Assembly: GCA_012932295.1 (NCBI GenBank)
Contig: JAAONU010000014.1
Span: forward strand, 40,160,770-40,224,769
DNA length: 64,000 bases
Direction: 5' to 3'
Source: Cyclina sinensis
Lineage: Eukaryota; Mollusca; Bivalvia; Venerida; Veneridae
Position 1 is the stretch's first letter; the number at the start of each line of letters is the position of its first letter. This document shows positions 15,391 to 49,700 of the stretch, piece by piece. The notes beneath the pieces were generated by a model. It searched no databases and had not been told where the DNA came from. It saw only the letters and a program-made list of their open reading frames with translations. The position numbers were made by a program, and so were the translations under genes.

Positions 15391-17514
15391 TATACTGAAA
15401 ACTGAATTTATCATTTGAACAAAAAAAGTGAAACATTTGACATACGTTTTACCGTAAGACCAATAATAGGGTCAGTGAGATGAATCTAGTTACCTATATA
15501 TTAAGTATTTTCGTATACATTAAGCTTTAAAGCTCATAAACTATAAGAGAATGGTTAAAGAAGATTTGTCACCGTCTAAAATCTTAGCATTTCCAGCCAT
15601 GATTTTCTACCTTCCAAAAGAAAATCGAAAGCAGTTCCGTCGCAATCCTTTAGCTAACTAAATGACTTAACAAATAACTAGACTACACCATTTTTCCACA
15701 AAAGTAGTCACTTAGATGTAATTCTTTTAAAGCGATGCCTAAAAGTGAATGGGTTTAGCAATATAAACTTCTTTTATGTTCTCTCTCTTGGCATTTCATG
15801 TAGACTTTATAACCAAGACGATCTATTGCTTTCGAATATTCACGACGATCAAGATAATGAAAATAAATTTTCATTTCCTCTCGTGTTGGACTCATTTCAA
15901 CTTTTGAAGATAGCTCACGAGCATAGGCTCGTGTGCCAACTGAACCGGTTGGCACAGTAGACTGCTTGAAAGATGGTCTTGTTTGGCCAGCACTATGAGA
16001 TCTGTAATGTCGGTCTTCCCTGGGTGCTTCATATCTTTTACCAATATGATTTGATATGCCTAAATCGTTATCGGGTTCATTAGCTGCATTGTACCGAGTA
16101 CTGGGAATTCTACTTTGTTCAAAAATATCCTTTTTACGATGACCATAAGTTTCCTTATCAAATCCCGACATATCGGCTTTACCAGACCATGCTTCTTTAG
16201 ACCTGTCCAGGCTCTCGCTCTTTCCTTGTGCCACGCCCTTTGCCAAAATAGGACCAGACTCGTGTATCAGCAACGCTGGCCAAACGACAAACTGAAACGC
16301 CCAGTGCGAGTGTAAGGCCTGTACATTTCTGTATCCAGTACATCCCCTTCCAGAGGTGTTTGGCTGAGAACAATTGGAGGATCTTGAATCTGTATATGAA
16401 ATAACGACCTTATCAAGGATGCCATTTTATTCGAGAAAAATGATAATAAATAAAATCACGAGAATCCCACAGAAAAAAAAAAAACATTTAACGATAGTCG
16501 GTTATCACAAATACACTATTGATCATAGCCTTTTACATTAGGGGGAAAAGATACTCTTTCCGGCAACCACAGCTGTATCTGTATGATAATACCTTAAACG
16601 CAAGTAACACTTTCCACTGAAATGACTTACTAACCCTTTTCTAGATAAGAATAACAATTAGAATTCTCATTAAATTTGAGTGAAACATGTTTAAACATTC
16701 AAAGGTAAAGTCGTTAGACTAGATCCGTAATGTCTAATTTCAAATATACCAACAAAAATAAAAATGACATATACATTGGATGAAAGACACAACTATTAAA
16801 TAACAAATAACTAATGCATTTTTAGCGATCATTTATTCTGATGCGTACAGAAAACATATGTGGCCATATCTATTATAAGTGAATACCTACAGCCATTAGC
16901 CAGCAGATCTCAAAGCACTCTTTTACAAATGGTTTGATTTCCATCGCATGTTTAAGAGTTTTGTCTCGGGACTTTCGTAGATGATCAATATATTCCTGAA
17001 AAAGTGACAAGCCTGATTTATTTATTTGGACTAACGCTTCATCCAACATGAAGAAAATGTTTGTTCAACGTCAAGAATGCATAGAAAGCGGCCTCCGAAA
17101 TTACGGAATTATTTGCAAAACAATTTACTGTGTATGAAGATATACTTACAATTATCTCTCGAACCATCAAACATCCAGGTTGAAAATCAAGTCTGTCTCT
17201 ACTGTCATTTTCTGTGTTCAAAATTTGAACTTTAAAAACGTTTTACCTGATACAAGTTTTGCGTTGCAGTATTGGACAATGCTTTCCTAACGTCTTTCAA
17301 CTGTTTTGTTACGTTGTCATGAATGTATTCACCCTGTAGCATATGAATATTATATTATTATAAATTCATTTCTAATATTCGTTTTTTCGATTTCGATTCT
17401 TGTCAAAAAGTAAAGGAAATTTAAAAAGGCATCATAATTACAACACTTCCTTGCATTTGAAAACTTCTGATAAATTCGTTGAGATAAATCCTATACATAA
17501 CAATTTTCTTTACA

Positions 17515-17538
17515 TCAATACAATACAATACAATACAA
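17515..17538. repeat. (AATAC)n microsatellite
   Basis: About five CAATA/AATAC units lie in the intron between exons 5 and 6 of pseudogene A. A similar run occurs at 35336-35365. Confidence 0.75.
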
Positions 17539-18928
17539 GACTAAATTTTATTTAAAGTCGGTGTACAAGAACAGTAAAACATTAGCGGTGTATCGCTATT
17601 GGCCGATTGATCGCATAAGGATAACATGTGGTTTTCTGTATTATTTCGTACAGCAACTCATGAGTGGACTTTTTTTAGTTCTCAAAATAAAACTTCAAGA
17701 ATTTAACAACAAAACGATTCAAAACATCTTAGCGTGGGCAGTTCAAGGGAATTGCGGAATCTAAACATTCAAGATAAAGAAGAGATAATATTGCATATAA
17801 TATAGACATACTTTCATGTAAATATCTGTTGAAATAATTGACCAATTCTACAGTGATATGGTGAGTTAGACTCTATGGACATACATCCCTAACTGAGAGT
17901 GTTAAAAGGGTACTTTTTCAAACTTTGTAGGTTCTGTTATCTTTATATAGATGCATTTACTCACTGTAATAGTGTACAAGATGATTTCATACTTGCAACG
18001 AGGTTGCGTGTTCATGTTTTGTACTTTAAACTGGAGGATATGAACATGATGCCCGTTTTTATGTTATTAATAATCAGACGTTTTCAGTGCAGGTATCTAA
18101 GCTTAGAATTATGACATTTTGTTTCAGGAAAACGGCTGAAGCGTCGGACAAAATTTTGAATTTCATATAAATATCAAATTATTTATTATTATCCGACGTC
18201 TACGCATTCATTCTAGGCAAATAATAATGACGGAATGTAAGCATGTAGAACTGTAGAAGAATTACCTCTGTTTTTTTTGTACCTTTTCAAGAAGGTATTT
18301 TTGTAGAATATGTATCAGTTAATCTCTTTTATACAACGAACATCTTTTACATATTCATCCTAAAAAGCTATTCTCAAAGGATTTGCTATAGCAACATTGT
18401 GCCCAAAACAAATCTGTGTCGAACTGCCGCTTCGCATTCAGAACTATCCTTACTTTGGTTTTCTTGTTTACAACTAAAAACTTACCTCCTGTTTTGAAAA
18501 TGTAAGGGTTCTTTGCAATTTCTCCAGCTGAAGTTTTGCTTGACTCTTGCAAAACTCCATAACGTCCTAAATGAAGGAAATATGATGATAATATTAAGCG
18601 TTTTACCTGTTCATAAACTATATATAACATCATGTACAATAAACATGTCAGCATAATTAGAAATAAAATATACAAAGTCCTTGCTAATGAATCATGTTTG
18701 AAGATGTTTACATGTGAACGACCTAGACCAAACCTCGCTACCTTGGCCACTTAATATTTTATGCACATTCAAAACGTTATATTACCATGAGTGTCTCTAA
18801 AAGCGTCTGTATGACTTCTTCTTCGTTTCCTAAATTGCAATAAATATTTTCATAGGCATCCGTCCATTGGTTTTCGTAAAGTTCAGCATATCTTTCAGCT
18901 AGTTTTGTTGGACGATCTTTGTCACTAA

Positions 18929-19867
18929 GGCTAAAAAAAATTAATGTTTAGTTTCTCAGGCCATTTTTATCAAAATTATATGAGGGAGGGCGGAATTTTT
19001 TTTATACCCTCATTTTTTTATTCATGATTTTGCACTTAATATGAGGTTTCATATCTCCAAAGAATCATATAAATGCAGTTTTAATGATCAATGCACTGAA
19101 TACGTGAAATTACCATCTGTATTAAGATGGTGTTTAATGTGTTGCAGAGTATTAACTTAAAAGATCTACTGAGAGCATTCAATAAAATCAAATCATATTT
19201 TACATTATAATGTGCAACATCACTTTTTATCCTTAACAAGACTTACTAGAACTTTTTTCTAAACAGAAATAACATGTCATGTGAAAAAAAAACACACAAT
19301 TAACTTTTTAGTAAGAATGTAATTCTACATGTACTTATTTGATACATGAATAATAAAATCCTAATTTAAAACAGTCTAAACACACGAAAATTAGTCTTAA
19401 TCTTTTAAAATTACGTCAAGAGAAAGGCATTGACAAAAGCATGGAATATTGTTCTGAAAACAAAATTAGTTTAACAAGCTTTATTTTTACCTATTTGTCG
19501 AAAATTTGTAGAAAACCAAAAACGTGGCCGTATTTGAATCAATGTGTCATAAACACTCGCTCGATCGAAGTTAATGAGACGCATATAGGTTACGCTCGAC
19601 TATTAAATAGGTTGCGCAACACTATTAACACATTCGGAACACCGCGGGCGAAATCAGTAAGTCTTTATACGAAGCTGTCGGAAAAGGCCGAGTTGTTACG
19701 ATTGCTTTTAACATAAACAAACCGTTTACCGCGGTACTTCTTGCCACCCCGGGAATAGTAAAAAGACGTTTTAATAAGTATTTTTTTTTTTGCCAGCGAT
19801 TGAAAATCGAAGCGGGCGTTCTAAACAAAGGCGGGGCCTGAGAAACAAAACATTATTTTTTTTAGCC
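18929..19867. mobile_element. PIF/Harbinger-like MITE, 939 bp, inside exon 4 of pseudogene A
   Basis: The termini are inverted repeats of about 33 bp that start GGCTAAAAAAAAT and end TTTCTCAGGCC, with a one-base indel between the two arms. The flanks carry TAA at 18926-18928 and 19868-19870. The paralogue B has the uninterrupted site (CACTAAGGTCGG, near 50018), with TAA once. A 3-bp TWA duplication and GGC-type ends are the known signature of PIF/Harbinger elements. No transposase is encoded; the open frame at 19441-19716 has no family motif. The target is the codon for Leu in NNPNI.DLSDK of the MIEAP-type module. Confidence 0.85.
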
Positions 19868-21970
19868 TAAGGTCGACAATATTCGGATTATTGTCTGTTA
19901 ATCTGACACCCATTGCTTTGCCTAGCCTAAATAAATTATAAATTCCAATTAATATAACAGCAGAACTCACAGTGTGAAGTGTCCTGTAATTTGACTTTTT
20001 CTTAGCATTACAACCGGTATAAAAAATATTTTAAAAAAGAAATATTAAGTAATTTATTGTATCATAAACAAAGTTTGAGGTCTATAAGGCTTTTTACAAC
20101 ATATGCTTTATACAAAACGGTCTTTTAAAACAGCTTTATTCTGTTTTTAGTTCTTTAGTTCGATTGCAATGTAGTCTCTTGACACAAGAATTTCTTTATT
20201 CAAATATACTTAGCAAAACAGTGTAAATACTCTTTAAGACTTTTATCAGGAGTGTGCTTTGTTTTTTTCTCATTTCCGAACGATGCAAAGCTAGTTTTAA
20301 TATTTACAACTTAACAATAAAAACTAAAAACCTTGTTTTTGTCTCGTCCAGTTCTCTTTCTGCATGTTTTAACCTTGTTAAAGCCCGATGAAGTTTGTCA
20401 TTGGTAACGTTTAACTGTTTCTGACTCTCCTCAAGTTTCTTTTCCAGCTCATGTCTACCACTGAAACCAAAGCTATTCTGTTCTAACGTCTCTTGAAGAC
20501 TTTTTATTTCCATCTCTTGCATTGTGGTTTGTTTCTGCATCTCTTCAATCTTCTGTTTTTGATCTTTGATTATATCATCACTTATCTCTTCTAAATCTTT
20601 CATTTTCTTTGCCCAGTCCTTCTCCTTTTGTTCGTGTGTGTTTTCAAGGTTTGCAATTTTTCGTTTAAATGCTAGTTCTTGGTCATTTGAAATCTTCTGC
20701 TGCCTTTCTTTAGAAAAATTGTTAAGTATTTTCCTCAAATCATTTCTTTCATTCCGATACCGGTCTCTGAGAGTTTCGGATTCCTTCAAACGTCCCTCAA
20801 GCTCCATTATTCTCTTTTCTAACTCAGCTCCGGTTTTTACAGCAATCTAATACATGTAGAAACTGTTTCTGATTACATTTTATTCCTTACAGTAATAATA
20901 TCTAGCAAAAAAACTTTCTGATACTTTTTTCATAAAAGAGACATCTCAAAGAGAAGCAGGTTTTCATATTTATTTTGTATTTCTTATTATCCTATTGTCA
21001 CAGTAGGAGGGAAGGGATTTATTTATGCCTAGTCTTTATCTGTATTAACTTAAGGTTATTTCAAAAGTCAGCATTATAACTACAATACTGAAGAGAGCAT
21101 TTTCCCATACTAACTTTATCGTGAAACAAGGATTTTAATCCTTTATTAAACAGATGACTGTCAGGGAATAAAAACTGCTTCTGACATTTATTGCTATAAG
21201 TTAACAACTTTAAAATAATACGTGACACAGAATATTTAATTTTACTTTCTGAAATTTCTGGCCAGATATCACGTAATAATTGTTTGATTACCTTTTACGG
21301 TACACAGAGTCAGAAAAAAACGCAACAAGACCAATGGAATGATACCTGTTCGATGTCTTCTGACGCTTCCTTGATACGTCTTTTAACTTCATTGTGATAT
21401 TCCCTCATAGGATCATTAATATACCCTGTGAGATTATGTAAAACTGTCCTGCCTCGCCCATCACCATTTCTATCATAATTGTCATGTGTTATATGTTCCA
21501 TTTTCCCACTCAGAACATGATTAGTTCTGTAATTAACACATACTGAGCGCCTAATTCGTATTGTTAAACAGTTATATAGAATATTACGACATAGATAAAT
21601 ACATGTGTTTTTAACCTTATGTAATGTCGTCTATTTGACAAGGTTCGCATTAATTGCATCAGTATTTTCATTGGTTAGAGCGTAACTTGATACAACAAAA
21701 TATAAAATATTAAACAAAAATAACAAACATTTTACAAGGAATATAATACTGATAATAAGTGCGATTTTTACTGGCAAGGGATAAAGTTTCTAAAAGACGT
21801 CTATATTATTATCATGAAATTGTAAAAACTTATCAAAGTCATAACAGTCAGTAATTCTATTAAAAATCTCGTAAACCTAAGACAATAATTAACACAGTGG
21901 TTAATGAGTTGGTGTTTAAAAGACAAAGACAAAAGTAATGAGAACCAAAGCATCCAGCAATCTTAAAAAT

Positions 21971-23515
21971 GATAAAGTCACTTTAGTAGACAATGTGATA
22001 AAGTGAAATTTAGTAGACAATGTGACGAAATGAACTTTGGTAGATAATGTTATAAAGTGAACTTTAGTAGAAAATGGGATAAAGAGAACTTTAGTAGATA
22101 ATGTGATAAAGTGAACTTTAGTAGATAATGTTATAAAAGGAACTTTAGTAGATAATATTATAAATTGAACTTTAGTAGATAATGTGATAAAGTGAACTTT
22201 AGTAGATAATGTGATAAAGTGAACTTTAGCAGATAATGTGATAAAGGGAACTTTAGTAGATAATATTATAATGTGAACTTTAGTAGATAATGTGATAAAG
22301 TGAATTTTAGTAGATAATGTGATAAAGTGAACTTTAGTAGATAATATTATAATGTGAACTTTAGTAGATAATGTGATAAAGTGAACTTTAGTAGATAATG
22401 TGATAATGTGAACTTTAGTAGATAATGTGATAAAGTGAACTTTAGTAGATAATATTATAATGGGAACTTTAGTAGATAATATTATAATGGGAACTTTAGT
22501 AGATAATATTATAATGGGAACTTTAGTAGATAATATTATAATGGGAACTTTAGTAGATAATATTATAATGGGAACTTTAGTAGATAATGTGATAATGGGA
22601 ACTTTAGTAGATAATGTGATAAAGTGAACTTTAGTAGATAGTGTGATAAAGTGAACTTTAGTAGATAATGTGATAAAGTAAACTTTAGTAGATAGTGTGA
22701 TAAAGTGAACTTTAGTAGATAATGTGATAAAGTGAACTTTAGTAGATAATGTTATAAAGGGAACTTTAGTAGATAATGTTATAATGTGAACTTTAGTAGA
22801 TAATGTGATAAAGTAAACTTTAGTAGATAGTGTGATAAAGTAAACTTTAGTAGATAATGTGATAAAGTAAACTTTAGCAGATAATGTTATAAAGTGAATT
22901 TTAGTAGATAATGTTATAAAGGGAACTTTAGTAGATAATGTGATAAAGTGTTCCTTGGTAGATAATGTTATAAAGTGAACTTTAGTAGATAATGTTATAA
23001 AGTGAACTTTAGTAGATAATGTTATAAAGTGAACTTTAGTAGATAATGTTATAAAGTGAACTTTAGTAGATAATGTGATAAAGTGAACTTTAGTAGATAA
23101 TGTTATAAAGTGAACTTTAGTAGATAATGTTATAAAGTGAACTTAAGTAGATAATGTGATAAAGTGTTCCTTGGTAGATAATGTTATAAAGGGAACTTTA
23201 GTAGATAATGTGATAAAGTGAACTTTAGTAGATAATGTTATAAAGTGATCTTTAGTAGATAATGTTATAAAGGGAACTTTAGTAGATAATGTGATAAAGT
23301 GTTCCTTGGTAGATAATGTTATAAAGTGAACTTTAGTAGATTATGTCAGAAAGTGCATTTTTGTAGCCAATATAACAAATTGTTCTTTAATAGATAATGC
23401 TACACAGTCTACTTTAGTAGATAATGTGATTGAATGTGTTAAAGTGCACTTTAGAAGATAATTAAATGCACTTTAGTAGTTAATGTCGTAAACTGAACTT
23501 TAGAACCTGGTTTAA
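21971..23515. repeat. 27-bp minisatellite, more than 50 units
   Basis: The unit is close to ACTTTAGTAGATAATGTGAT then AAAGTGA (27 bp). Variants alternate GTGATAAAGTG, GTTATAAAGTG and ATTATAATGGG and form short higher-order runs (for example five ATTATAATGGG units at about 22450-22560). The array fills intron 1 of pseudogene A. A decayed version of the same array fills intron 1 of gene B (52385-53160), so it predates the A/B duplication and was later homogenised in A. Confidence 0.9.
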
Positions 23516-23726
23516 ACCTCCGGTGGAAAATGTTTTACCACTGAACGTTCCATGGCGGTAACCCCTCGGTTCTCATTTTCGTTTATTGTTTGCGGTGCCT
23601 TTTTTTCTTCTTCTTTAAATTGATCAATATATAAATTTATGCTCTCTTTTCCTCTCAATTATAATTTTACTGTGTAGGGAGAATGTGTTTTCTGACCGTG
23701 ATTTTTCCCTATATGTGTGTTTAACA

Positions 23727-23935
23727 TTTTTAGCAGATAATGTGATAAATTACACTTTAGCAGATAATGTGATAAATTACACTTTAGCAGATAATGTGAT
23801 AAAGTACACTTTAGCAGATAATGTGATAAAGTACACTTTAGCAGATAATGTGATAATATGCATTTTAGCAGATAATGTGATAATGTGCACTTTAGCAGAT
23901 AATGTGATAAAGAACACATTAGCAGATGAATGTAA
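23727..23935. repeat. Second 27-bp block (AGCAGATAATGTGATAA variant)
   Basis: About seven units of CACTTTAGCAGATAATGTGA plus TAAATTA or TAAAGTA lie apart from the main array. The period of 27 keeps one frame open, so both strands show repeated nonapeptides (LADNVIKYT on the plus strand). This is a by-product of the period and not evidence of a gene. Confidence 0.85.
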
Positions 23936-24092
23936 AAGGAGGATACAGAATAGTAAAGAACATGAATTAAGTAAACTATTGAAATCTATTAAAACTATTG
24001 AACAAAAAAGTTTCCTTAGCAGTAGTAGGAAGTATTGTAGGATATTTAACGCTGGTGATGAAAACACACAAAAAAACTTACGTGCCAGACAT

Positions 24093-24260
24093 GCTTATAC
24101 AGGTTCCGTTGTTACATTTTCAAACTGAAATATTTTTGATACAGGCTATCCAATCATAAACAAACTGGCTACTTTCGATTTAGGAATTGTTTAGTGTTTG
24201 TTTCAGATGGACTCTACTTTTTGTTTCATGTGACATTGAAAAAGCGGTAAATATCAGAAA
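24093..24260 (-). promoter_or_regulatory. Conserved 5' flank / probable promoter of copy A
   Basis: The 100-150 bases upstream of the shared ATGTCTGGCAC start are strongly alike in A and in B (53634-53790): AAAATGTA.CAACGG, CAGTTTGAAAATG, and an inverted CCAAT motif (CTATCCAATCA on the plus strand). Such retention compared with the drift in the introns suggests promoter and 5' UTR sequence. No TATA box is evident. This is inference from paralogue comparison. Confidence 0.4.
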
Positions 24261-24583
24261 TGTCAAGAGTAAATTTCAATAAACAGTTTTTACATTTAGC
24301 CCGGTATCAGTAGAATCTTGTTCTATCTACAACCAGTATTAAACCAGCAAATAAAATAAGCACTTTGACGAACAGGAAAAATTAACCGCAAAAATTATCA
24401 GCAAATTTTGACATACCTTAACCGATTGTAACAGTGTTGTCAATTAGTAACTTTACGAAATTTCTTTTAATTTCCAAGAATAGAAATAACTTCCTTATTC
24501 CCCTAACTGTTCCAATTGTGATATTGACAAAAATTATCGATCTTGAGTTTAATATTTGCATTACCTCTGAAATATACGATCAC

Positions 24584-24588
24584 AGGTA
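24584..24588. repeat. Target-site duplication AGGTA, left
   Basis: AGGTA directly precedes the left inverted-repeat end and recurs directly after the right end (35191-35195). The paralogous uninserted sequence beside gene B carries GGGTA once at 54143-54147. Confidence 0.85.
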
Positions 24589-25112
24589 CACCCCTACTAA
24601 ACGGTGGCTCTTTCACATTTTGGTGATCTGTTTAGATGAGAGCCATCGACACTTCCGTTGCAGAGCCCTCGACCAAAACAAGTCGGAAAAAGGTAGGCAC
24701 ATGTTATAATAATATCCGTTTTTAAAGAACATGCTTGTTTTTCAAAAATCGAAGAATGTCATGCCACGTAGAACATTTTTGTCATCATTTTGGATGCAGT
24801 TTCGATAAGAATTACCCAAAAATGACGTTGCTAGAACTTTTACCAAATATCAACCCGTGTGTTTTCTTTTACGAGGAGTCACATCTTGAGTGATTTCTCT
24901 GTCGTGAAGTAGTTGTTGGCCCGGTTAATCGTGCATGTAACATTGTTCAAACCTCCCCTTCGGCTCAACACAAAAACATGATCAGAAAGCTCGCTTAAAA
25001 ACAAAATACTCACATTTTTTCAAATGTGATCGAGCCATCGACAAGGTGCTGGCGCCATCGGCAGTGTGAAAGGGCCCTCGCAAATGTGATGGAGCCAACA
25101 CCATTATTCAAT
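24589..25112 (+). repeat. Left terminal inverted repeat (about 524 bp)
   Basis: It is the reverse complement of 34666-35190, with scattered substitutions and a few one-base indels. Homology stops at ATTGAAT (25106-25112 / 34666-34672). It contains the first coding exon of the main gene (24636-24692), its GTAGGC donor, and repeated subterminal motifs. Long TIRs that include a promoter and an exon are unusual. Confidence 0.92.
24603..25098. promoter_or_regulatory. Repeated subterminal motif in the TIR (possible transposase-binding sites)
   Basis: The motif CAAATGTGATSGAGCCAWC occurs at 25021-25038 and 25081-25098. An inverted, slightly changed copy lies at the outer end (24603-24622; reverse complement AAATGTGAAAGAGCCACC). 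GAGCCATCGACA also occurs at 24640 and 25033. The same set is mirrored in the right TIR. Repeated subterminal motifs of this kind are often transposase-binding sites; the role here is inferred. Confidence 0.5.
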
Positions 25113-28100
25113 TAATGTTAATATATTGTGGAACTATACCGATTAATATTCATGTTTAGACTTAATTGCAGGAGTTGATAAAGACTTATTTTCATGAAAT
25201 GTTTCGAATAATTGTTCAATTAGATTCCTTAATGTTTCACGTAATGTGAACCAGTTTATCAGTACCCATAATTGTATATTCAAAATAAATTTTATTACAG
25301 ATGACGATATTTAGAGGAAAACGAAGAAAAAAGTGGCATTTAGCACGACGAAGAAAATATCGGCAAAGCAATGGAACACAAATAAGAAGTTATCGTCAAA
25401 GCAATGAACATGAATCACAGAAACATGGGAGAAAGAATCTTCGACGCACCACACCGGCGAAAACAAATAAAAGAAAACGTATACAAGGTTCAAGTTCCAA
25501 AAAGCAATTCAAACATTCTAGATGTAATACACAATTTTCGGCAATTAAACATTCTACACCAAGGAAAACATCAAAAAGAACATTGAATTTTTCACTTGAA
25601 AACCATTCAATCAGTGGTGAAGAAGTAACTGAAAACGAAACATTTTTATACTCGTTAGACGAAATTCTTACAGACAGTGATGTTGCAGATATCGAGGAAC
25701 CTTTATCAATTAGTCCAGAAAATGAACCAAAGGACATTATAAACGATTTACCCAATGATGCTGGAAATGAAGAAAAAACTGTATCCGATCTGTTCAATGA
25801 AGTTTTACCAATTTTAAAAAGGCATGGAAAAAGCGACGATCTGATTTCTTTTTTTAAACTAGTTGCTGAAGGAAGGTTTCCACTTGATAATGTGGCATTC
25901 ATGCTATTCCTAGATGTGATAAAATGGTTTAATTCTGATGATGTGTGACAAGTAAGGTACAGCGATACTACACTTAAGTTCTTTTGGCTTGGAAAGAAGT
26001 TATTTGATGGTAGATTTTTGCGCTTTATGTCTGGGCCTAAAAATGAATCTGATGGTGTTCTTCGAAAAACAAATCTCAGTCCGATGGATTCAAAGATCAA
26101 CTTTGCCTGTCCTAGTGACTCAAGATTAACAAATTATAATCCATTGGGGTATGATGTTGATGTTGAAGCTGGACCAGGTATAGTGAAACCAATGATTGAT
26201 CTCGCCGCCAAAAACAACAAAAATGAAATGTCTTATGTCATTATGTTTGATGGCAAGAAGATAAAAAGAGGAGCTGACATGGACCTCCTTGGATTTGAAA
26301 AAGAACCAGTAGCTGAAAAGAGAGAACAATTAAAGAAAGACCTTGACATACTTGACAATACATTCGACCAACTCCAGCTGATAGAAAATACCAAGGAAGG
26401 TGATGGTAAAATAAATCAGAAAATTAAGTTGAATTTAAAGGATAAAATTTATGCCTGTTTCCAAATAATCTCTAAATATATTATGCAAATGCGAAAGCTA
26501 AAGCAATCCAAAATTCTAGCATTAAAAAAATACAAAGAGAGAATACAGAAAGACGCCTCATTAGCTAAAACACTACAGTACGCAATGGATGCATGTCGAA
26601 CCTCGTCATACCAAATCGATAACTGTATTGAGGTATTTATGAATGTACAATGGGAACTATGTAAAGCCGGAGCGTACTTGAATGGTGTGCTCCATCTGTT
26701 TGCCAAGTCGAAGAATGTATCGGTAGAAAAGCAGCCTAACGTCAAACTGCTGAAGGATGTTGCTGATATGAAGCTGTTGCTGAACACAGACGTTGTTCCA
26801 ACACATTTGATAAAGCAACGAAGTGAAGAATGGCATGCTGCTAGGGAAACTGTTAAAGTTACAGGAAGCTCCATATACACTGCGATTGGCTGTGATGGAC
26901 TCAAGAGTCAGAACGAACATTTCGATTCTGTGTTCAGTAATGTCGCTAAGCCTAAGCCTGACGAAAATCAGAGAAAAGCTATGGAACATGGTGTACAATC
27001 CGAGGCACACCAGATTGCAACATTATCAAGTGTTGTCATACCATTCTTGTTTCCAGACATGAGTTACGTCGAAGAGGGGTATTATGTAGTAGATGGAGTA
27101 GTTGTTTCACCAGATGGAAGTCTCAGAGACTCATCAGGATCATTAGTATCACACGCCTTCGAAGGTAAAGCACCCATACCAAAAGAATTTACAACTAGAC
27201 AACATTATAATGTTCCATTAAGATACGTTACACAAACCATATACGAACAAAAGGCTGTACATTCTGACAAAGGGACTTTGTATATGTGCTGGACCCCGGA
27301 AAGTACAACATTATTTACAGTACCGAAAAATGATGAAGTGTATGCAATGATAAGAAGTGTTATAGAATATCTTTATGGCGAAGATATTCCAAGAAGGAGA
27401 ACGAGATTGTCCAATAAGACAAAGAAGTTGAAAGAAAAACTCCAAGAATGTGTAGGACAATGTGAATTTCTGGGAGAATTTCCATCAGTGAAAGCAGATG
27501 GTAATTCCACTACAAGCGAAGGACCAGAAGATACAGATGGCAGATTTGAATACAGTTGTCTGTCAAGATTGCTCCTCAAAACTAAAACCTCTGTCAGGGA
27601 AGCATATGATCTTAAGAGAAATTACGCATCACAAGTAGTTGTGTACCTGCTTGCCGATTTAGACAGACTATGGAAGTCAGAAATACCACATGCCATACCA
27701 GTTATGTATTACTATAGAGGATATAGTTTGTCGATGAATCAAGCTAGACAGTTACTTGACTTTTGTCGAAATGCATGCAAAGAAAAGGGATTGGATGTGA
27801 TAGCTACCGCTTCAGACGGTGAATTCAAGCAGCTGATGGTTGTAGGAAAGAATGAAGCCCCCCTCACATTATACCAGCTCAGCAAGATGGTATGGCATGA
27901 AGTATCCAAGATGAAGAAGTCTAGATTAGTAAATCTACTGAGCTCAGTGAATCGCAAATATACAGTCAAAATTGAAGCTAATAACAAGATTTCGCTCACA
28001 AGTACAGATGGCGGGAATAATATCAGAACATCGCCTGATGGATGGAAGAAGAAGAAGAACAAGTCAAAGAAAGAGTCAGTATCACAAACAACAATAGAAC

Positions 28101-31100
28101 CTGATGCATCAGATGAAGTTATTGAAGCTCTTGAGGATGTTAATCATGCACCAGTAGAGCTTAACACAAGTATGAATGTGACAATAGATAAAGATCTTCA
28201 AAGCGACGCTGATGAAACAGTATTGTATGACTTCGAAGAATTGCTACAGGAACAAGAGTTCAATGAGGGCAGTGAAGCGTTTCCACGTAAGCTTAACAAT
28301 GATGAGAAAAAAGATATTTTGCATCTTATACACCAGAGAAGGCCACAGAAATGGAAAGATACTTCAATTGAAGAATTGACAGATATCTTAGAAAACAAAC
28401 TCAAAGTACTGATCGTGGATGAATTGTTAGAGATATCAAAATATCTAAACTTAAAACTAAGAGGTACTAAACTACAAATGAAAGTAAGGAATATGAAGAA
28501 AAATGAACTGGTAGAACAACTGAGTCAAACAATACAAAGTCCAGTGAATGTACAACCCACAGTTCAAGCAAAGCCACCGACAAAGAAAACAAAGGTACGT
28601 CAACCAGGAACACTACATGATTTGGCAACTGCAGCTTTAAAAAACCAGTCATATCCCAAACAAGCTGTAAACATTGCTTATGCTAGCTACATATGGCCTC
28701 AAAGAGTAGAAGAATGGCGACGGAACAGTAAAGTCTCTAAAACCGTAATTGTACAAGGCACTTCAGAAGAATTATCCTTCGAACCATACTATGTTCCTGA
28801 ATTCGATGAGGAAGAGGATGATTTTAAAGTATTCATTTACGACAGAACACATCTGGGAACGAATTTACGCAAGTGTTTGTGTTTAGACAAAGTTGACGGT
28901 ATTTCAATTCATGCCTGGAAAATTGTTGCTGAAAGAAAACCTAATATTTTACACCCGACCATTGTGGAAGTATCTGAGGACGGTAAAATTTTGGATCAAA
29001 TGAAAGAAAAATTGGCCAGAGCAATGGTTACTGAAGCAGTTGAACAAGAAATGGAAACACTAGGTTATATCAAAGAGGCCAAATTTTGTAACGTAATTCG
29101 AGAAGGTCTCTATATAGCCGATGATATACCAGGAATCGATGCAATGGAGAGGTGTAAGAAAAGATTAAAACTGATCGAATGGTTAGACAAGGATGTCGAC
29201 TTTGGTAGATTCCCTCCATATGGTGGAAGGATAAAAGGATTATCCCACATTCTTTATGAAGGACTTCGAACTAGTCAGGAAGGAAAGCTCTACTTGTATG
29301 CTTTAGCAAAAGCAGGGAAGTACTGTGTCCGAGCTGCAAATACGTTGTGCAGTGAATCTTTTTTTGGATCGATGCAGGAGATGGATCCATGGGGTCAAGG
29401 AATATTAAGTAGCAGTGGTGTTCAGAAGCACATCTCCGACTTCACTACGATCACTGCTTTAAAAATGGAAAATACTAGGTATTTGAATCTATTTTATATA
29501 GAAATATGACCTCTAACAAGATATTCAAATATATTCCAATTAATAGCTTCAATGTTCTGCAATACAACAATGATAAAAATTCACATTTGTAAAGTGTTAT
29601 GAATAGAACATGTGACGTACTTCTCGAACGTGAGATCGTTATTGCATTTTTTGACAAACCGATAAACATAATTGTGTAGTTTATCGGTATATTACATACA
29701 CACTTTTTAGCTCACCTGTGCACTTTGTGCTCAAGGTGAGCTTTTGTGATCGCCCCTGTGTCCGTCGTGCCTGGTGCGTCTTGCGTCGTCAACCTTTTAC
29801 TTTGAACATCAGCTCCTTCTAAACCACTTGGTGAAAGATAATAAACGTTGCAGGAATGTTCCTTGCATGAAGCTTTACAAAGTTGTTCAAAAAATCCCAT
29901 TCCATGAAGAACTCTGGTTGCTATGGCAACAAGAATGAAAAATTTTGAAAGTATTCTTGTCTAAAATGGCTAACCCCATTGGTCAGAAATTTGGTGTGTA
30001 GCATTGTCCAGTGAACCTCTACCAAGTTTGTTCAAATAATGTCCCGGTGTCACTATTGGCCCTGCCCTAGGCGTCAGAAGTGTTACACAGCAATATAAAA
30101 GAACATTATAAAAAAAACTTTTTGTCTCAATCCCCAAGGCGTATAATTTTAAAATTTGGCATGAAGCATTGCCTAGTGGACCTTTACCAAGCTTGTTCAA
30201 ATTGTTTGATTGGGGTAAAGTTAATCGAAGCTAAAAATAGATTTATCTGCTTACCTCATAGAGTCTTCGTTTATAGACCAATAACTTTGATATTTTGTAT
30301 GTAGGTTCCTTTCATGGACTTCTACCCGTAGGTGGGATTTGAGGTCAATAGGTCATGGTCAAGGTCACCGTAGCTACAAATAGATATTTGTACTTTCTGT
30401 CATAGAGCCTTTATTTATTTACTTATATTTTAGAAATTTGGTTTGTAGGTACCTACAAATTTTCAATTTGAAAATGAAATACTGCTTCTTATGTTAACTT
30501 TACAGCAAACCCAAAGCCAAAGTACTCAGGTGAGCGATTCAAGGCCATTATGGTCCTCTTATCTTCAATCCATTAGTTAATTCGGAACGGAATAAAAACT
30601 TAATTATTCTTCCAAGAAATTGACATTTTTACAAAATGGTTATACTATCTTAAACTTAATTTTCTTAATTTCACAAATCTTAGAAATCAATCTCACAGAT
30701 ATCGAAACAGTCTAGATATAAAGTTTATAGCTCAACAATACAAGCTTAAATCACAGTCGCAGATATCAATACAGTCGAAACAACAATACAAGATTTTGTA
30801 GTGAAGATAAATTATATAAAATAAGTTGTGAAACGTAATTCAATTTCGTTTTACAGGAATGTGTATATCAAGACTAAAAAAGACACAGTTTATCCTTCAG
30901 CTCAGGTTTACTACGCAGATGACAAAGGAACGAACTGCGAGGATGATCAACCAACAAGAGAATGCAGATGCAGAAAAGACAAATACATCAGTTGTATTGT
31001 TCCCCGGTAATGCTATTAGTACTCAAGTATATAGATATTATAACCATCATGAGATTACAGTATACAATTCAATGTAGGTACCAATGATTTAAGTATCATT

Positions 31101-32148
31101 TGCCATAGAATTTACTATTTCGACTCGATACTAAGTATTAACTTAAATCGTATTTTAAATGAATAATCCAAATCATGCTATTCTTAATTTATAATTGCTT
31201 TATGACTTTAAGGTCCAATGGTGGACTGTTATATGTTCTGTTTTAACTGTACTCATAAATATGTATATATATGCACTTGTCACTAAAATAAAGTACTCAC
31301 TCACTCACTCACTTAAACTAATTTGTTCTGTGTATCATAATAACGGAAGCATGGAGAGGACATGGTCAGTTTATTTTATTAATCCGTGGGAACGACTTAT
31401 TATCAGAAATATTTTTTTCTAATCTGTGGGAACGGATTATTTTGCGCGAAAAATCTTTTTTTTTAACTTGTGGGAACGAGTTATTTGTTGCGAAAAATCT
31501 TTTTTTTAACTTGTGGGAACGAAATATTTTGTGCGAAAAATCTTTTTCTAACTTGTGGGAACGAGTTATTTTGTGCAAAAATCTTTTTTTAACTTGTGGG
31601 AACGAAATATTTTGTGCGAAAAAATCTTTTTTCGCACAAAATATTTCGTTCCCACAAGTTAAAAAAAGATTTTTCGCATAAAAAATAACTCGTTCCTACA
31701 AGTTAAAAAGGATTTTTCGCACAAAATAACTCGTTCCCACAAGTTAACAAAAAGATTTTTCGCAACAAATAACTCGTTCCCACAAGTTAAAAAAAGATTT
31801 TTCGCGCAAAAGAACTCGTTCTGACAAGTTAAAAAAAGATTTTTTTGCACAAAATAACTCGTTCCCGTATTACGATGATAATGCCTTCTCCAGGTTAATC
31901 TCTTTTCTTTTAGAAAACATAGAGATTCATAAGAGTTTTAACATCTTTTTATTTACAGAAATCATTTCTTTGACACTAAAGAGAGAGCTAGAGTATACAA
32001 AGGCGAGAAGTTGTACAAACCAGGCACGGAAGAATTAAAAGGCGAACAGCCAATCAGAGCCCAGTATGGATACAAAATAAACGAGGCGAAAATGTTGCCC
32101 TCCCAAAGACTTGGCATTTCGAAGTCAGTGTACCAAAATAAACATTAA
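24636..32148 (+). CDS. YqaJ-nuclease / DDE-type transposase fusion (4 exons, one internal TGA)
   Basis: Exons 24636-24692, 25301-29478, 30857-31006 and 31959-32148 join in phase to 1525 codons including the stop. Codon 235 (25946-25948) is TGA in an otherwise open frame. Residue numbers follow this joined frame. 20-60: strongly basic (KRRKKWHLARRRKY), likely DNA-binding or nuclear localisation. About 336: YVIMFDGKKIKRGADMDLLG, presumed first catalytic Asp. 526-690: YqaJ/lambda-exonuclease-type PD-(D/E)xK nuclease, with QRSEEWHAAR, E587 (GVQSEA), D624 (VSPDGSL), E640-G-K642 and YVTQTIYEQ. 858: VIATASDGEFKQL, presumed second Asp. 1200: YDRTHLGTNLRK, like the D..HL..NLR motif of P-element-type transposases. 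1371: LCSESFFGSMQ, presumed final Glu. Motif positions are seen; the DDE assignment is inference. AATAAA overlaps the end of the frame (32137-32142). An alternative start is the ATG at 25301. Confidence 0.75.
29709..30548. mobile_element. GCTCACCT-type bivalve repeat in intron 2 of the transposon gene
   Basis: It begins AGCTCACCTGTGCACTTTGT with GCTCAAGGTGAGCTTTTG and ends CAAAGTACTCAGGTGAGCGA, TTCAAGGCCATTATGG. The short outer inverted repeat (GCTCACCT / AGGTGAGC) and the internal GTCAATAGGTCATGGTCAAGG are seen in related copies elsewhere in the window. It is a passenger in the intron and has no coding role. Confidence 0.6.
31381..31868. repeat. Large palindromic array of about 40-bp units in intron 3
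   Basis: Six units of about 40 bp (AACTTGTGGGAACGAGTTAT, then TTTGTGCGAAAAATCTTT) run forward to about 31624. They are then mirrored by six reversed units to 31868. The axis lies between 31625 and 31626 (GCGAAAAAATCTTTTTTCGC). The whole block can fold into one hairpin with arms of about 240 bp. Open frames across it are repeat artefacts. It lies inside an intron, so it would be transcribed as a long hairpin. Confidence 0.85.
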
Positions 32149-33753
32149 AGTTGTTAAAGTCTACTAAAAGACATATGAACACATATGAATATTTCGACAC
32201 TTGTGTAAAATAATGTTAACATTTTTGAACGTTCATGTAGCATTACACTAGTACGCCTAATAGTTATCATACTATCCAATCTTATGTAGCTTTACTTTAG
32301 TAAGCTTTCGCCTCCAGTTTAACAGACATGATACTATGTAATTCTAGCGTAAATCTGCATTGATATGCATTAGGGCTGGTTACCATGTATACATGTAGCA
32401 ACCATGAACGTTTTCTTAATTGTAAACACGTACATGTTGATTTTGTTTGCAAATAACAGTAAATACGTCAATTGTAGAATAATTTTTGTTTTTCTTACAT
32501 CATAATAGAGGTCAGCTGTGTTGGTCGAATGTTTAAGGCGTTTGCTTCTAATCCAAAGGTCTTTGCTTGCTAAAGAAGGGTTTGGTACCGAATCCCGCTA
32601 GGAATCTACTGAATAAAATTTGGTAATATGGTATCACGAATGATGTTGAATGCAAGCAGGTACCCGCCTGCAAACTAGCCAACTCTTAGTTTGTGGAATT
32701 GTTGAAGGCATCTTACGTTTCAATAATGCAATAACAAAACAACGATACGTGTATTTCAACAGATATATTTCTCTGTATTTAATGAGATCAACATGTATTT
32801 GCATGTATTGACCTGCTAACCAAAACATAATAAATTAAACTGTAACAGAACCAAAAATAACAAATACAATTTTAAGAGAAATCAGGCACGTTCTCAGTTC
32901 TTAAAACTTCAAACGTATATGATACGTGTATCACAAAAATGCAAAATGGTTCTTCCAACCGCATCCAAAGACTTGAAATAAAATTGTTCAAATAATATTT
33001 CACAGAAACATTAAATTTGCTACACTTGCAAATACAATTTTGTACCTATAAATACAACAGTCATCGTTCCATTGCAACCTCGATTCATTCTGGATGCATT
33101 ACTTTAGTTTTCTTTAGCAGTTTTATCATTTAATTGACAAATGTTTATAACTTCAGGTGTTTTTTGCCAAAATATGACCATGTATTAATGCAGTTAAACT
33201 TTCTTTCAACAATGATAACTGTATGCATCACCAGCAAAGCAACCATGTTATCCGTGAGTGAAAAAAATTATAATGTACTAGTACCTCTATAAAATAATTC
33301 TTTATGAAAATACTATCCCATTATGTGGGGATATAATTGCATATCTGCATGATAACTTGAAAAAAACGGTCGTATCTGAAGGAAACATATAAAAAAATAA
33401 ACATAGAAACATTTCATAATCTATAAAAGGATCAAGCCAGTAATGTCGTTGGAGGTAAAGCAACCATTATTATTGACGTTGTTATGTAACGAAGGCTTCT
33501 GTATTTGTAGGCGTGTACACATCACAATTATTCTTACATGTAGAGATCAATGCATATATTTTGATAATTGGTAAAACAATATTTCTACATTTTGAAAGCA
33601 ATATAATGAAATAGAGAACAAACGTAACAAAACTAGGCACTATTTAGCATGTCAAACAATAATACTGCAAACACAACTTAATTAGCAACAAGTTCGTCAT
33701 TAAGTTCAATACAATTTATAGACATCAAATACGTTACGCTGTGATGTAACACG
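32149..33753. other. Intergenic part of the transposon
   Basis: This lies between the stop of the main gene and the end of the convergent C2H2 gene. Apart from the tRNA-like sequence at 32517-32603 I see no coding frame with motifs. It is AT-rich and would carry the 3' ends of both transcripts. Confidence 0.5.
32517..32603 (+). mobile_element. tRNA-derived SINE-like head
   Basis: TGTTGGTCGAATGTTTAAGG, CGTTTGCTTCTAATCCAAAG and GGTTTGGTACCGAATCCCGC follow the layout of a tRNA-Leu-like gene (A-box-like and B-box-like segments, long variable region). Arms pair imperfectly and an insertion breaks the T stem, so a functional tRNA is unlikely. It is best read as a SINE head or a tRNA relic inside the transposon. 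Confidence 0.45.
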
Positions 33754-33859
33754 TTTACATATGTCAGGCATGTCGGAACTAAGACCATGTGAGTATGAAA
33801 TGTTCGCAGTCAATCTAATCCAACTTGTGCACAGTTCTGACATGCCTGGCATATGTAAA
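33754..33859. repeat. 27-bp inverted repeat at the 3' end of the C2H2 gene
   Basis: Arms 33754-33780 and 33833-33859 pair with two mismatches (TTACATATG(T/C)CAGGCATGTC(G/A)GAACT). The right arm lies within the last finger's codons and the left arm is beyond the stop. A hairpin with a loop of about 52 nt would therefore tie the end of the coding sequence to the 3' UTR. Confidence 0.7.
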
Positions 33860-34366
33860 TTTACGGTCGAAGACTTTGCCACAGACTTCACAAACAAACT
33901 GCTTCACTTGTGTGTGCTTAACCTTCTCGTGCATTGCTAATGCCTCAGGACCGCCGAACTGTTTGGTACAAAATTTGCATGAATGGTTTTTCTTAACACT
34001 TTTGCCGCATCTTTGGATATGCCGCTTCAAGTTGCGTTCATAAGCGAACTCCTTTCTACAGTTCTCGCATTGCAACAGATTGACACGGTGTTTATTCCTT
34101 AAGTGATCAGTCCTGTCCTTCTTTGTGTAGAATGAAATGTTGCATTCGTCTACGGTACATAAAAATTCCCTTTTCCGTGCATGCACACGTTCCGTGTGCT
34201 TTTTCAGAGATGATGGTGTAGCATATCGGCCATCACATATACCACATACAGTGCTGTTCGTAGCCCGCTGATGATAGTTTTTTATATGGAACTTTACTCT
34301 TGCCTTATTGGCATACATTTTACCACAAACATCACATGAGAATCGTTTTTGTGTCCCCTTATTCAT
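33815..34366 (-). CDS. Six-finger C2H2-type zinc-finger protein of the transposon
   Basis: The frame has 183 codons and six fingers over nearly its whole length. They start CDVCGKMY, CGICDGRY, CTVDECNISF (C-x4-C), CENCRKEF, CKFCTKQF and CEVCGKVF. Finger 4 ends H-x3-C and is C2HC. Linkers are irregular and not TGEKP, so the protein is not a KRAB/Kruppel-type array. An acceptor (TATTTTAG|GAGAAAG) lies 13 nt upstream of the ATG, and the first exon is probably the 57-nt exon of the right TIR. If joined, that exon's frame ends at a TGA overlapping the ATG (TGACATG), so the finger frame would need reinitiation, or the TIR exon acts as a leader only. The likely role is binding element or host DNA; this is inferred. 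It is convergent with the main gene. Confidence 0.75.
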   Translation of the reverse strand: MNKGTQKRFSCDVCGKMYANKARVKFHIKNYHQRATNSTVCGICDGRYATPSSLKKHTERVHARKREFLCTVDECNISFYTKKDRTDHLRNKHRVNLLQCENCRKEFAYERNLKRHIQRCGKSVKKNHSCKFCTKQFGGPEALAMHEKVKHTQVKQFVCEVCGKVFDRKFTYARHVRTVHKLD

Positions 34367-34665
34367 GTCAAGCTTTCTCCTAAAATATAATTAAATTTCA
34401 TAAATTAATTACTTTAAGAAATAAAAAACTGTAACTTTACAAAGTAAAAAAACTGTAACTTAACCAAGTACAAACATCTTTTATAGTACCGAATCTGTTG
34501 CTGTTTTTTACAATGAGGTTGGAACCTTTGATGTGTGACAATTATCGTAATGATTTCAAATTATTTTATTTCGATATGTCAACCGGTGCTATAATGCTTA
34601 TAATATCTATTTTGTTGATCAATTACGTATCATACCAGGATAATTGCTCAATATTATCACTAAAT

Positions 34666-35190
34666 ATTGAATGACGGTGTTGGCTCCATCACATTTGCGA
34701 GGACTCTTTCACACTGCCGATGGCGCCAGCACCTTGTCGATGGCTCGATCACATTTGAAAAAAATGTGAGTTTTTTGTTTTTAAGCGAGCTCTCTGATCA
34801 TGTTTTTGTGTTAAGCCGAAGGGGAGGTTGGAACAATGTTACATGCACGAATAACTGGGCCAACAACTACTTCACGGCAGAGAAATCACTCAAGATGTGT
34901 CTCCTCGTAAAAGAAAACACACGGGTTGATATTTGGTAAAAGTTCTAGCAACGTCATTTTTGGGTAATTCTTATCGAAACTGCATCCAAAATGATGACAA
35001 AAATGTTCTACGTGGCATGACATTCTTCGATTTTTGAAAAACAAGCATGTTCTTTAAAAACGGATATTTTTATAACAAGTGCTTACCTTTTTCCGACTTG
35101 TTTTGGTCGAGGGCTCTGCAACGGAAGTGTCGATGGCTCTCATCTAAACAGATCACCAAAATGTGAAAGAGCCACCGTTTAGTAGGGGTG
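34666..35190 (-). repeat. Right terminal inverted repeat (about 525 bp)
   Basis: This is the mirror copy of the left TIR. It carries the same 19-codon exon on the minus strand (35087-35143), here with a better donor (AAG|GTAAGC against AAG|GTAGGC on the left). The exon points inward, toward the C2H2 gene. An open plus frame at 34667-34939 is only a shadow of this repeat. Confidence 0.92.
35087..35143 (-). CDS. Duplicate first coding exon in the right TIR
   Basis: This 57-nt frame (MRAIDTSVAEPSTKTSRKK) is the mirror of exon 1 of the main gene and is followed by a consensus donor (GTAAGC). It could serve as the leader exon of the minus-strand C2H2 gene. Joined in phase 0 to the acceptor at 34379 it gives a short frame ending EKA-stop. 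It is seen as sequence; the splicing is inferred. Confidence 0.5.
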
Positions 35191-35195
35191 AGGTA
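35191..35195. repeat. Target-site duplication AGGTA, right
   Basis: AGGTA directly follows the GGGGTG end of the right TIR. The sequence after it (GATCGCGCCATCCTACCGTTT) aligns with AATCGCGCTATCTTACCTTTT beside gene B. Confidence 0.85.
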
Positions 35196-36211: not shown

Positions 36212-36635
36212 AAGTCCGTGAAGTTAGCTCTGAGATCAGCAATCGACATTCAGCTCGACATTCCTTTTTTGTATTTTGATTTTTGAATGTCGGGCCGAAT
36301 GTCGAGCTGGCTCAACATTCAGCTCGACATTCGTTTTTGAACGATTTAAAGTGTTTCGAATGTCGAGCCGAATGTCGAGCTGGCTCAACATTCAGCTCGA
36401 CATTCGTTTTTTAGTATTTTTCAGTGTTTTGAATGTCAAAAACGAATGTCGAGCTGAATGTTGAGCCAGCTCGACATTCGGCTCGACATTTGAAATATGT
36501 TGAAACGTTCAAAAACGAATGTCGATCTGAATTTTAAGCCAGCTCGACATTCGGCTCGACATTCAAAAATCAAAATATAAAAAAAATGTCGAGCTGAATG
36601 TCGATTGCTGATCTCAGAGCTAACTTCACGGACTT
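36212..36635. mobile_element. 424-bp near-perfect palindrome (foldback element)
   Basis: The arms begin AAGTCCGTGAAGTTAGCTCT, continue with GAGATCAGCAATCGACATTC, and are mirrored to GGACTT at 36635. Inside, each arm is built from short repeats of GAATGTCGAGC(T/C)GAATGTCGAGC with CAGCTCGACATTC complements. TAAGGT flanks both sides (36206-36211 and 36639-36644, with three extra T on the right), a possible 6-bp duplication. No coding capacity; frames across it are artefacts. Confidence 0.8.
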
Positions 36636-46793: not shown

Positions 46794-49700
46794 CTAGTTA
46801 TAAAGATGTCTTCTATATTCCCTTTGTGAGCGTTTCTGGCAGATACCATGACGATTTATCGCCCCGACATAATCAAAACGGTCGGGATACCGAAGAAACG
46901 GTGTCATTTCCTCTTGTGTTGGACTCCTTTCCGTTTTATTAGATAGTTTACGCGTATTTGTTTCTTTGTCAACAGTAGTGGTCATCACAGTAGACTGCTG
47001 GTATGATGGTCTTGTATGTCCAGCACTGTGAGTCCTGTAATGTCGGTGTTCATAGGTTCCATATCTTTTATTCTCATATGTGATGCCAGAACAGTAATTG
47101 GTTTCAAGAGGAGTATCGTATCGAGTACTTAAATATCTGCCTTTTTCGTAGACACCCTTTTCTTGAAGACCATAGTTTTCTTGTAGAACTCCCGACTTAT
47201 TTGTTTTATCAATCCATGTCTCTATAGGTCTTTCATGTCTCTCATTCACTCCTTGAGCCACCCCCTTTGCCAGAACAGGTCCGGAATCATGAAGCAACAA
47301 CGCTGGCCAAACGACAAACTGAATGAGACGCCCGCTGCGCATGTACGGCTTATACATTTCGGTATTGAGAACGTCTCCATTCCGAGGTATTGGACATATA
47401 ACAATTGGAGGATCTTGAATCTTTATATGTAAAAATGTAAACAATGCATATCAGGAAAACCAACAGTAAACAAAAAACAGTTTCCTTATACAGTAAAAAG
47501 TAGAGGAAAAGATAGCATAAACTTATTCATAGATCAATACAAAAAAGACACCACAATCAATTAACGAAAAAGAGAACCAGAGGAGTTACCGCCTTGGAAA
47601 AGTCAATGGCAAATCACTGACAGTTTTAACCAGGTATTTTGTAAGTGCACCAACCTCACACTTGCCCCAACAGGTATTTATTAGAACAAACAAGAACATA
47701 TGTCTTGGTGAATTAACTCCAACGGTCCCATCAACTCGTAAATGTTGCAAAAGCACACAAACATATGAACATAAAAAAGCTAAAATGGCATTGTAGAGTG
47801 AAAAGGATACGTACTCAATGACCTGACATCAGAGTTCTTTGAGTTAAATCATCAAGAATATTATGAATACAATTTTATTAAAAGATGACAGCTTATTCTA
47901 GACACCTGTTATTTTGCCATTTAAGCATGAGAAAAAAAGAAAGAAATGCCAAGTTTTTTCATCGAACGGTAGTCAGCCATTATAGTAACTGACAATTTGA
48001 TGAAATAAAAGCCTTTAATATTTAGTTAAAAAACAACTTTTTTCACCTCAAGTACTTTAAAAGAATGGCAAATGCACCTTACTAGTGGATCCTGAATTTT
48101 ACTGTGTGTAAAAACCACGTACCCCTTTATTATAATGTCTTCTGGATACTTACTGCCATTAGCCAGCATGTCTCAACGCACTCTTTTACAAATGATTTAA
48201 TCTCCATTGCCTGTCTAAGAGTTTGATCTCTTGACACTCGCAGACGGTCAATATATTCCTGTAAAGAAATGCAAGACTGATAGAGTACTTCATTTCATTT
48301 CACTAGCGATTCATAACTGCTTACTGAGGATGAAAAATATCCGTGACTGTATGTCGCAGTCATAAAGGATCAAGGTTGTAAGACAAGACTGTCTCGACTG
48401 TATGTCGCAGTCATAAAGGATCAAGGTTGAAAGACAAGTCTGTCTCGACTATATGTCGCAGTCATAAAGGATCAAGGTTGAAAGACAAGTCTGTCTCGAC
48501 TGTATGTCGCAGTCATAAATGATCAAGGTTGTAAGACAAGACTGTCTCGACTGTATGTCGCAGTCATAAATGATCAAGGTTGTAAGATAAGACTGTCTCG
48601 ACTGTATGTCGCAGTCATAAAGGATCAAGATTGAAAGACAAGTCTGTCTCGACTGTATGTCGCAGTCATAAAGGATCAAGGTTGAAAGACAAGTCTGTCT
48701 CGACTGTATGTCGCAGTCATAAAGGATCAAGGTTGAAAGACAAGTCTGTCTCGACTGTATGTCGCAGTCATAAAGGATAAAGGTTGTAAGACAAGACTGT
48801 CTCGACTGCCATTTTCTATGTGCAAATTTCCTTTCAAATTCAAGTTAAACAGTTGCCACTTTTAAAAAAAGTTTTACCTGATATAGGTTCAGCTTTGCCG
48901 TTGATGACAGTGCTTTCCTCATGTCTTTCAACTGTTTTGTAATGTTATCAGGAACTGGTTCATCTCCCTGTAGCATATAAATGTTAGATTTTACTAACTT
49001 CTGACACTCGTATTTGATTCCGATAACCCAGGGACATTATTTGAACAATCGTGATAGAGATTTACTTAATAATGCTATAACCATATCTCAGAGCTCTGGG
49101 TGGTTTTAAAGGAGAAGATTCTTTGTAGTTTTTCATCATATTTTTATAGAAGGGAGAATTCTGCAAGGACTGACATTCTTTGAACAATTTTGATAGAGCT
49201 TCATGCAAGTAACATTCCTGCCAAGTTAAATAAACTATGACCCGGTAGTTTAAGTGAAGATGTTGTCGGACGAATAACTTGACTACGCACTGACGTAGAA
49301 CACATAGGGATAATGAAATCTCACACCAAGCATATTTTGCTCAGGTTTACGAAAAGTGATAACTTTATTTATCCAGATGTCCAGTAAAATCATCTCTGTT
49401 CTTTCATTACAAGATGTATCTACAGTGCGTCTAATCGAAATCAATTAATTTAATATGTCAAACAGAGAAATCCAATGTGTTTTCTTTCTTCTTATTCGAC
49501 TTCTGCATTCAGCACTATTACTACTTTGATTTTCTTTGTTGACAACTGTAGCTAACTAACAACTCAAACACTTACCTCGTTTGTTGAAAATGTAAGGGTT
49601 TTGTGCAATTTCTCCATTTGAAGTTTTGCTTGACTTTTGCAAAACTCCATAACGTTCTGGAAGAAGGAAATATGAAGATAAAGTTTAACGTTATACATAT

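Follow-up and report, generated by a model that had tools for sequence, protein, structure and literature searches.

A P-related DNA transposon with a nuclease that appears to be embedded in its transposase

The 64,000-nucleotide stretch of contig JAAONU010000014.1 analysed here (the window) carries, at positions 24589-35190, a 10.6-kb transposon that is most aptly described as P-related, with a nuclease embedded in its transposase, be it as a subgroup or as a superfamily of its own. With a probability that we put at about 0.85, it belongs to a P-related lineage of cut-and-paste DNA transposons, and its P-type DDE transposase contains a lambda-exonuclease-like nuclease between strands beta1 and beta2 of its RNase H fold. 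According to the structural model, the catalytic fold itself thus seems to harbour a second enzyme that cuts DNA, one of a type that viruses use.

The transposase gene lies on the plus strand and is made of three coding exons (25301-29478, 30857-31006 and 31959-32148, the last ending with the stop TAA), whose splice sites were set by eye and which, once joined, encode 1505 amino acids. This gene structure is supported by homology: homologues align along exon 1, and the last 205 residues, some 92 of them encoded by exon 1 and about 113 by exons 2 and 3, match the relative P0014 at 34% (E 2e-30) and the relative P0015 at 33% (E 4e-29), in an alignment that spans exons 2 and 3 up to a near-terminal EAKMLP..R.G facing EAKILPHVRRG. 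The reading frame is interrupted by an in-frame TGA at codon 216 (25946-25948), downstream of which 1176 codons follow without a stop as far as the first splice site. This stop position is read through in all eight of the relatives P0001-P0008, in which all catalytic positions are kept as well.

The core of the protein was tested for a P-type DDE/RNase H fold, which is present in the model and supported by homology. In the numbering of the open reading frame (ORF) starting at 25949, the putative catalytic triad is formed by D101 (FDGKKI, beta1; 26249-26251), D623 (SDGE, just past beta4; 27815-27817) and E1136 (SESFF, alpha4; 29354-29356), which are kept in 31 of 31, 27 of 29 and 19 of 19 alignment rows with a letter, respectively. 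Past beta5 stands a DxxH motif, D965-R-T-H968 (28841-28852), whose D is found in 19 of 20 rows and whose H is found in all 20. In the same model, helices 966-1119 would lie between strand 958-964 and helix 1133-1144, that is, at the beta5/alpha4 site. It is there that the P transposase houses its GTP-binding domain, that Hermes, Tn5 and RAG1 have insertion domains, and that such domains of DDE transposases are often located (PMC7776569, PMC8230255, as far as the excerpts of these papers go). Among the family members, the Pfam profile TNP-like_RNaseH_N is detected in 13 of 34 at E <=1, the best value being 4.1e-5.

The nuclease is predicted at another place of the fold. As judged from the secondary structure of the model and from structural matches, the insertion extends over ORF residues 113-556 (26285-27616, plus strand), with long helices at 121-244 followed by the nuclease domain at about 270-515, and its strand-by-strand placement would be between beta1 and beta2. 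The domain (26756-27493, plus strand) is YqaJ/lambda-exonuclease-like, with conserved E352, D389, E405, K407 and Q429; its fold and active-site residues are supported by the relatives and by the model. Within the family alignment, D389 is kept in 33 of 33 rows, E405 in 31 of 33 and K407 in 31 of 32.

Several observations weigh against this interpretation. In the window protein itself, the TNP-like_RNaseH_N match falls below the cut-off (E 0.048, 14.4 versus 24.6 bits) and YqaJ is not called by Pfam at E <=1, so that both the P-type and the YqaJ assignments of this protein rest on its relatives and on the model. When solved structures were searched by sequence, nothing significant was retrieved for the RNase H core or for the nuclease: the best hit of one search was a designed protein (E 0.068), and a second search placed Huntingtin first (0.041), with lambda-type exonucleases at 0.29-1.7. 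A search of a viral structure library ranked a phage YqaJ protein first (E 0.063). Besides, the correspondence of the triad to residues of the P transposase, presumably D230, D303 and E531 of 6p5a, is a tentative one. The THAP domain was not found in ORF 25289-25945 (E <=1) or in 18 homologues scanned singly, the family-wide Pfam results behind this negative giving 25 of 36 families and a further upstream exon being possible. The duplication made on insertion measures 5 bp, versus 7 or 8 bp in the P superfamily, and it is known from a single insertion, no second copy having been obtained. Finally, no nuclease profile matches the lineage of P0013 and P0034-P0039, as seen in the six of its seven proteins that were scanned, and nuclease activity may therefore not be needed by every member. 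A model of one protein of this lineage, P0035, has an insertion that retains the exonuclease fold without a YqaJ profile match.

Two other explanations have to be considered in this context. The nuclease could be a passenger, kept for structure or DNA binding and without catalytic part in transposition; this seems rather doubtful, since for most members the conservation of the nuclease residues roughly equals that of the triad of the transposase. The element could also belong to a separate superfamily, related to P only through the DDE fold shared by the C/DxxH group, the P transposase being merely the nearest solved structure; DDE superfamilies with solved structures are few. The aligned part is 14% identical to the P transposase, which speaks for such a separation, as do the 5-bp duplication, the failure to find a THAP domain, the different insertion point of the nuclease and the occurrence of the C/DxxH signature not only in P but also in hAT, Kolobok, MuDR and Dada (PMC10045372, excerpt). 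Such a separate superfamily is held to be an unlikely, though serious, possibility.

The P-related transposase with its predicted nuclease belongs to a family of at least 39 proteins. The joined transposase retrieved 13 homologues, the alignment A1 retrieved 31 (20 of them new) and the divergent members 7 (6 new); as the second and third searches scored the best 7996 and 7987 candidates by shared words, the total is a lower bound. All eight relatives named by organism come from bivalves (two from Mercenaria, two from Dreissena, and one each from Solemya, Mya, Mytilus galloprovincialis and M. edulis), and the source of the element is by this token probably a bivalve mollusc. One cluster, P0009, counts 107 member sequences, a size that would suit a multicopy element. 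In a tree of 23 members, midpoint-rooted for drawing only, P0001 and P0002 are the neighbours of the window protein (support 100/100), inside a clade that counts 11 members; another clade comprises 9, a third consists of P0013, P0034 and P0035, and P0012 sits on a long branch. Relatives of the protein were also sought in viral contigs and in prokaryote genomes, where 70 and 15 stretches, respectively, were candidates and none was confirmed. The viral contigs also lack any exact match to the outermost 20 bases of the terminal inverted repeat (TIR).

Both ends of the transposon are exact: CACCCCTACTAAACGGTGGC opens the left end at 24589, and the reverse complement of CACCCCTACTAAACGGTGGC closes the right end at 35190. 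AGGTA is found on either side (24584-24588 and 35191-35195), and because the bases further out differ, a C preceding the left copy and a G following the right one, the target-site duplication is of exactly 5 bp. Once fused with a single AGGTA, the flanks align over the junction to 53584-54257 at 72% (508 of 702 columns, 10% gaps). This segment, a diverged paralogue, contains the empty site, with GGGTA present once and without insert (54143-54147, plus strand), and both borders of the element are therefore confirmed. An earlier note on this DNA had described a complete and bounded 10.6-kb element with exact ends, AGGTA on both sides, TIRs of about 524 bp and an empty paralogous locus. All of this holds for the borders, but completeness does not extend to autonomy: as read, the copy is not autonomous because of the in-frame TGA, and a later insert lies in its intron 1. 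The insertion data come from this one copy at one target site. In the 64-kb window no other TIR copy was found, matches beyond the two arms being all short (E >=0.027), and a 202-kb genome sample of 21 stretches, too small for copy-number inference, had no TIR or transposase match at E <=1e-3. The paralogous pieces around the element are arranged in two co-linear sets, 15812-24588 and 46845-54257, which are about 67-83% alike, the transposon being present in the first set only.

The left TIR opens with CACCCCTACTAAACGG and covers 24589-25124 on the plus strand, and the right TIR is its inverted copy at 34651-35190 on the minus strand. The two arms (24589-25124 versus 35190-34651) are 96.1% identical over 540 columns, and their outermost 524 bases are 97.0% identical over 525 columns. 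Within the left TIR, an outer pair of GAGCC(A/C)TCGAC motifs (24640-24650 and 24663-24673, mirrored at 35129-35139 and 35106-35116) is followed by an inner cluster of related 20-bp motifs (25023-25102, with starts at 25023, 25043 and 25083, mirrored at 34681-34755); the motifs of the pair and of the cluster read GAGCCATCGAC and AATGTGATCGAGCCATCGAC in each TIR. The pattern GVGCCMTCGVC has 8 matches in the 64 kb, all within the TIRs and corresponding to four sites per TIR, where 0.02 would be expected, a count that is circular because the pattern was taken from the TIR and one TIR is a copy of the other. If up to 3 mismatches are allowed, AATGTGATSGAGCCA is matched at 10 places, of which 8 lie in the TIRs and 2 elsewhere, against 2.3 expected. 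By analogy with Galileo, a member of the P superfamily whose TIRs of 0.5-1.2 kb contain several transposase-binding sites (PMC3688188, excerpt), these repeated motifs are candidate transposase-binding sites.

The CAC ends and the 5-bp duplication are shared with Transib and RAG-like elements, and convergent genes are found in the RAG-like elements known as RAGL (PMC7204232, excerpt). The element could then be a divergent relative that inherited these features, which is very improbable: a RAG1-type core is not the best structural match, and the terminal consensus CACTWMC of protostome RAGL (same source) is not matched by the CACCCCT of the element. Membership in Transib/RAG was rejected on these two grounds.

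Next to the P-related transposase gene, and convergent with it, the transposon carries a C2H2 zinc-finger gene on the minus strand (33815-34366), whose 183-residue product shows six zinc-finger stretches in Pfam. In both TIRs, AAAAAG is followed by a donor-like sequence, GTAGGCAC on the left (donor 24693) and GTAAGCAC on the right (donor 35086), and an acceptor AG precedes the first coding exon of both genes. Each TIR may therefore supply a promoter and a non-coding first exon to one of the two convergent genes, as far as the sequence signals allow such a proposal; for the transposase, this probable exon would lie within 24589-24692 on the plus strand, ahead of the GT donor at 24693, to which position 35086 in the right TIR is equivalent. 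In P0014 and P0021, residues 1-30 show a C-x2-C...H...H arrangement resembling a single zinc finger that is not called by Pfam, the C2H2 fingers of the element being encoded by the separate gene.

Further claims of the earlier note concerned the coding content and the classification. Its four-exon transposase candidate corresponds to the three coding exons plus the probable non-coding exon of the TIR, its nuclease domain is recognised from relatives and model, its C2H2 gene is present, and its impression that the protein does not resemble RAG1 in spite of the CAC ends and the 5-bp duplication agrees with the structural comparison. The statement that no superfamily could be named is upheld in part. 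Canonical P elements have a duplication of 7 or 8 bp and a THAP domain; neither was found here when looked for, so that the element is not filed as a P element, but its catalytic core is P-like.

In terms of mechanism, the transposase would bind the ends, probably through the repeated motifs of the long TIRs, pair and cut them by the P-type DDE chemistry suggested by its fold and residues, and insert them with the 5-bp stagger that the duplication records. The most likely part of the C2H2 protein, whose gene starts out from the opposite TIR, is to contribute further DNA binding, possibly to the TIRs, as a substitute for the THAP domain that P transposases have. The nuclease, carried on a helical arm, would most likely process the cut DNA. 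It could resect the donor break and thereby favour repair from the sister chromatid, by which the element would be restored; the P group is known for donor-site gap repair. It could also trim the non-transferred strand at the transposon ends, the cuts made by Drosophila P being staggered by 17 nt (PMC7776569, excerpt). A change of the duplication from 8 to 5 bp could accompany the inserted nuclease, as AcademH and AcademX offer a precedent: their duplication lengths differ, which is thought to be tied to the helicase and nuclease that they encode (PMC10045372, excerpt).

A broader proposal can be made, which is tentative and judged more probably wrong than right. It states that the element represents a bivalve-wide lineage of superfamily rank with a double-nuclease transposase, in which a lambda-type exonuclease interrupts the P-type DDE domain. 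This exonuclease would resect either the ends or the donor break and would be tied to the 5-bp duplication, the transposase itself would channel donor breaks to copy-restoring repair, and part of the abundant bivalve YqaJ genes would be transposon genes. Irrespective of this proposal, a whole nuclease elsewhere in the DDE fold than at the usual site would show that a second enzyme is tolerated at that point, and the embedded nuclease offers a natural test of the control that a transposon might exert on the fate of its own break. Besides, the family links the P group with the YqaJ exonucleases, which form a separate gene in ISL2EU, and suggests that some bivalve YqaJ genes read as recombinases or endogenous viral elements may be transposon genes. 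If the 5-bp duplication recurs in further copies, duplication length would prove variable among P-like transposases.

Other repeats are found within and around the transposon. Nested in intron 1 is a dispersed repeat (29710-30535) that is foreign to the original element and whose imperfect inverted ends measure 18 bp (GCTCACCTG...CAGGTGAGC); similar sequence occurs in 2 of the 21 sampled genome stretches, L006, where the inner part is tandemly repeated, and L019. Intron 2 contains an imperfect palindrome of about 480 bp with units of about 43 bp (31388-31866), and the element was therefore probably shorter on arrival. About 1 kb to the right of the element lies another imperfect palindrome (36212-36635), which is about 424 bp long, has a 73-bp unit and is self-complementary at 90%. 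To the left, a 27-bp minisatellite of 54 copies with strong GC skew (21970-23430) is matched in the paralogous segment by a counterpart (52511-53128), likewise of 27 bp, that has diverged from it. Further along the window are a 51-bp tandem repeat of 9 copies with 95% matches (48345-48808), whose minus strand is open with QSRQTCLSTLILYDCDI repeats, and a plus-strand open frame of 1143 codons (58312-61740), coiled-coil-like and with three 336-bp tandem units at 60567-61589.

Compared with known systems, which are cited here from excerpts, the element resembles the P superfamily (Drosophila P, THAP9/Pdre2) in its core fold, the order D-D-DxxH-E, the helices predicted before alpha4 and the ends starting with CA, those of Pdre2 reading CATACC (PMC10983969). 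It differs in its TIRs of about 540 bp, versus 13-50 bp for most P elements (PMC10983969, PMC3688188, PMC1562414), its 5-bp duplication, versus 7 or 8 bp (PMC7776569, PMC4168063, PMC1562414, PMC10983969), its predicted beta1/beta2 nuclease, its separate C2H2 gene and the THAP domain that was not found. The Galileo elements of Drosophila are alike in their P-type transposase and their long TIRs with several transposase-binding sites (PMC3688188), and unlike in their duplications of 7, sometimes 8 bp (PMC4168063) and their THAP domain, no nuclease being mentioned in the excerpts. No P-type transposase with a nuclease is described in the titles and abstract openings surveyed in the PMC open-access library, Repbase, Dfam and subscription journals being outside this scope. 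In ISL2EU elements, of the PHIS group, a YqaJ exonuclease likewise accompanies a DDE transposase (PMC4482050, PMC9179366), but it has an ORF of its own, AT is the target that is duplicated and the ends are usually GG (PMC4482050); membership in ISL2EU was rejected, given that the element has its nuclease inside the transposase frame, an AGGTA duplication and CAC ends. In two bivalve genome papers, YqaJ gene families are listed as recombinases or endogenous viral elements (PMC10225492, PMC7826175), and the latter cites Inoue et al. 2018 for the ability of YqaJ-type domains to fuse with transposases. Finally, Academ, with AcademH and AcademX, is a superfamily within which an accessory helicase or nuclease goes with differing duplication lengths (PMC10045372).

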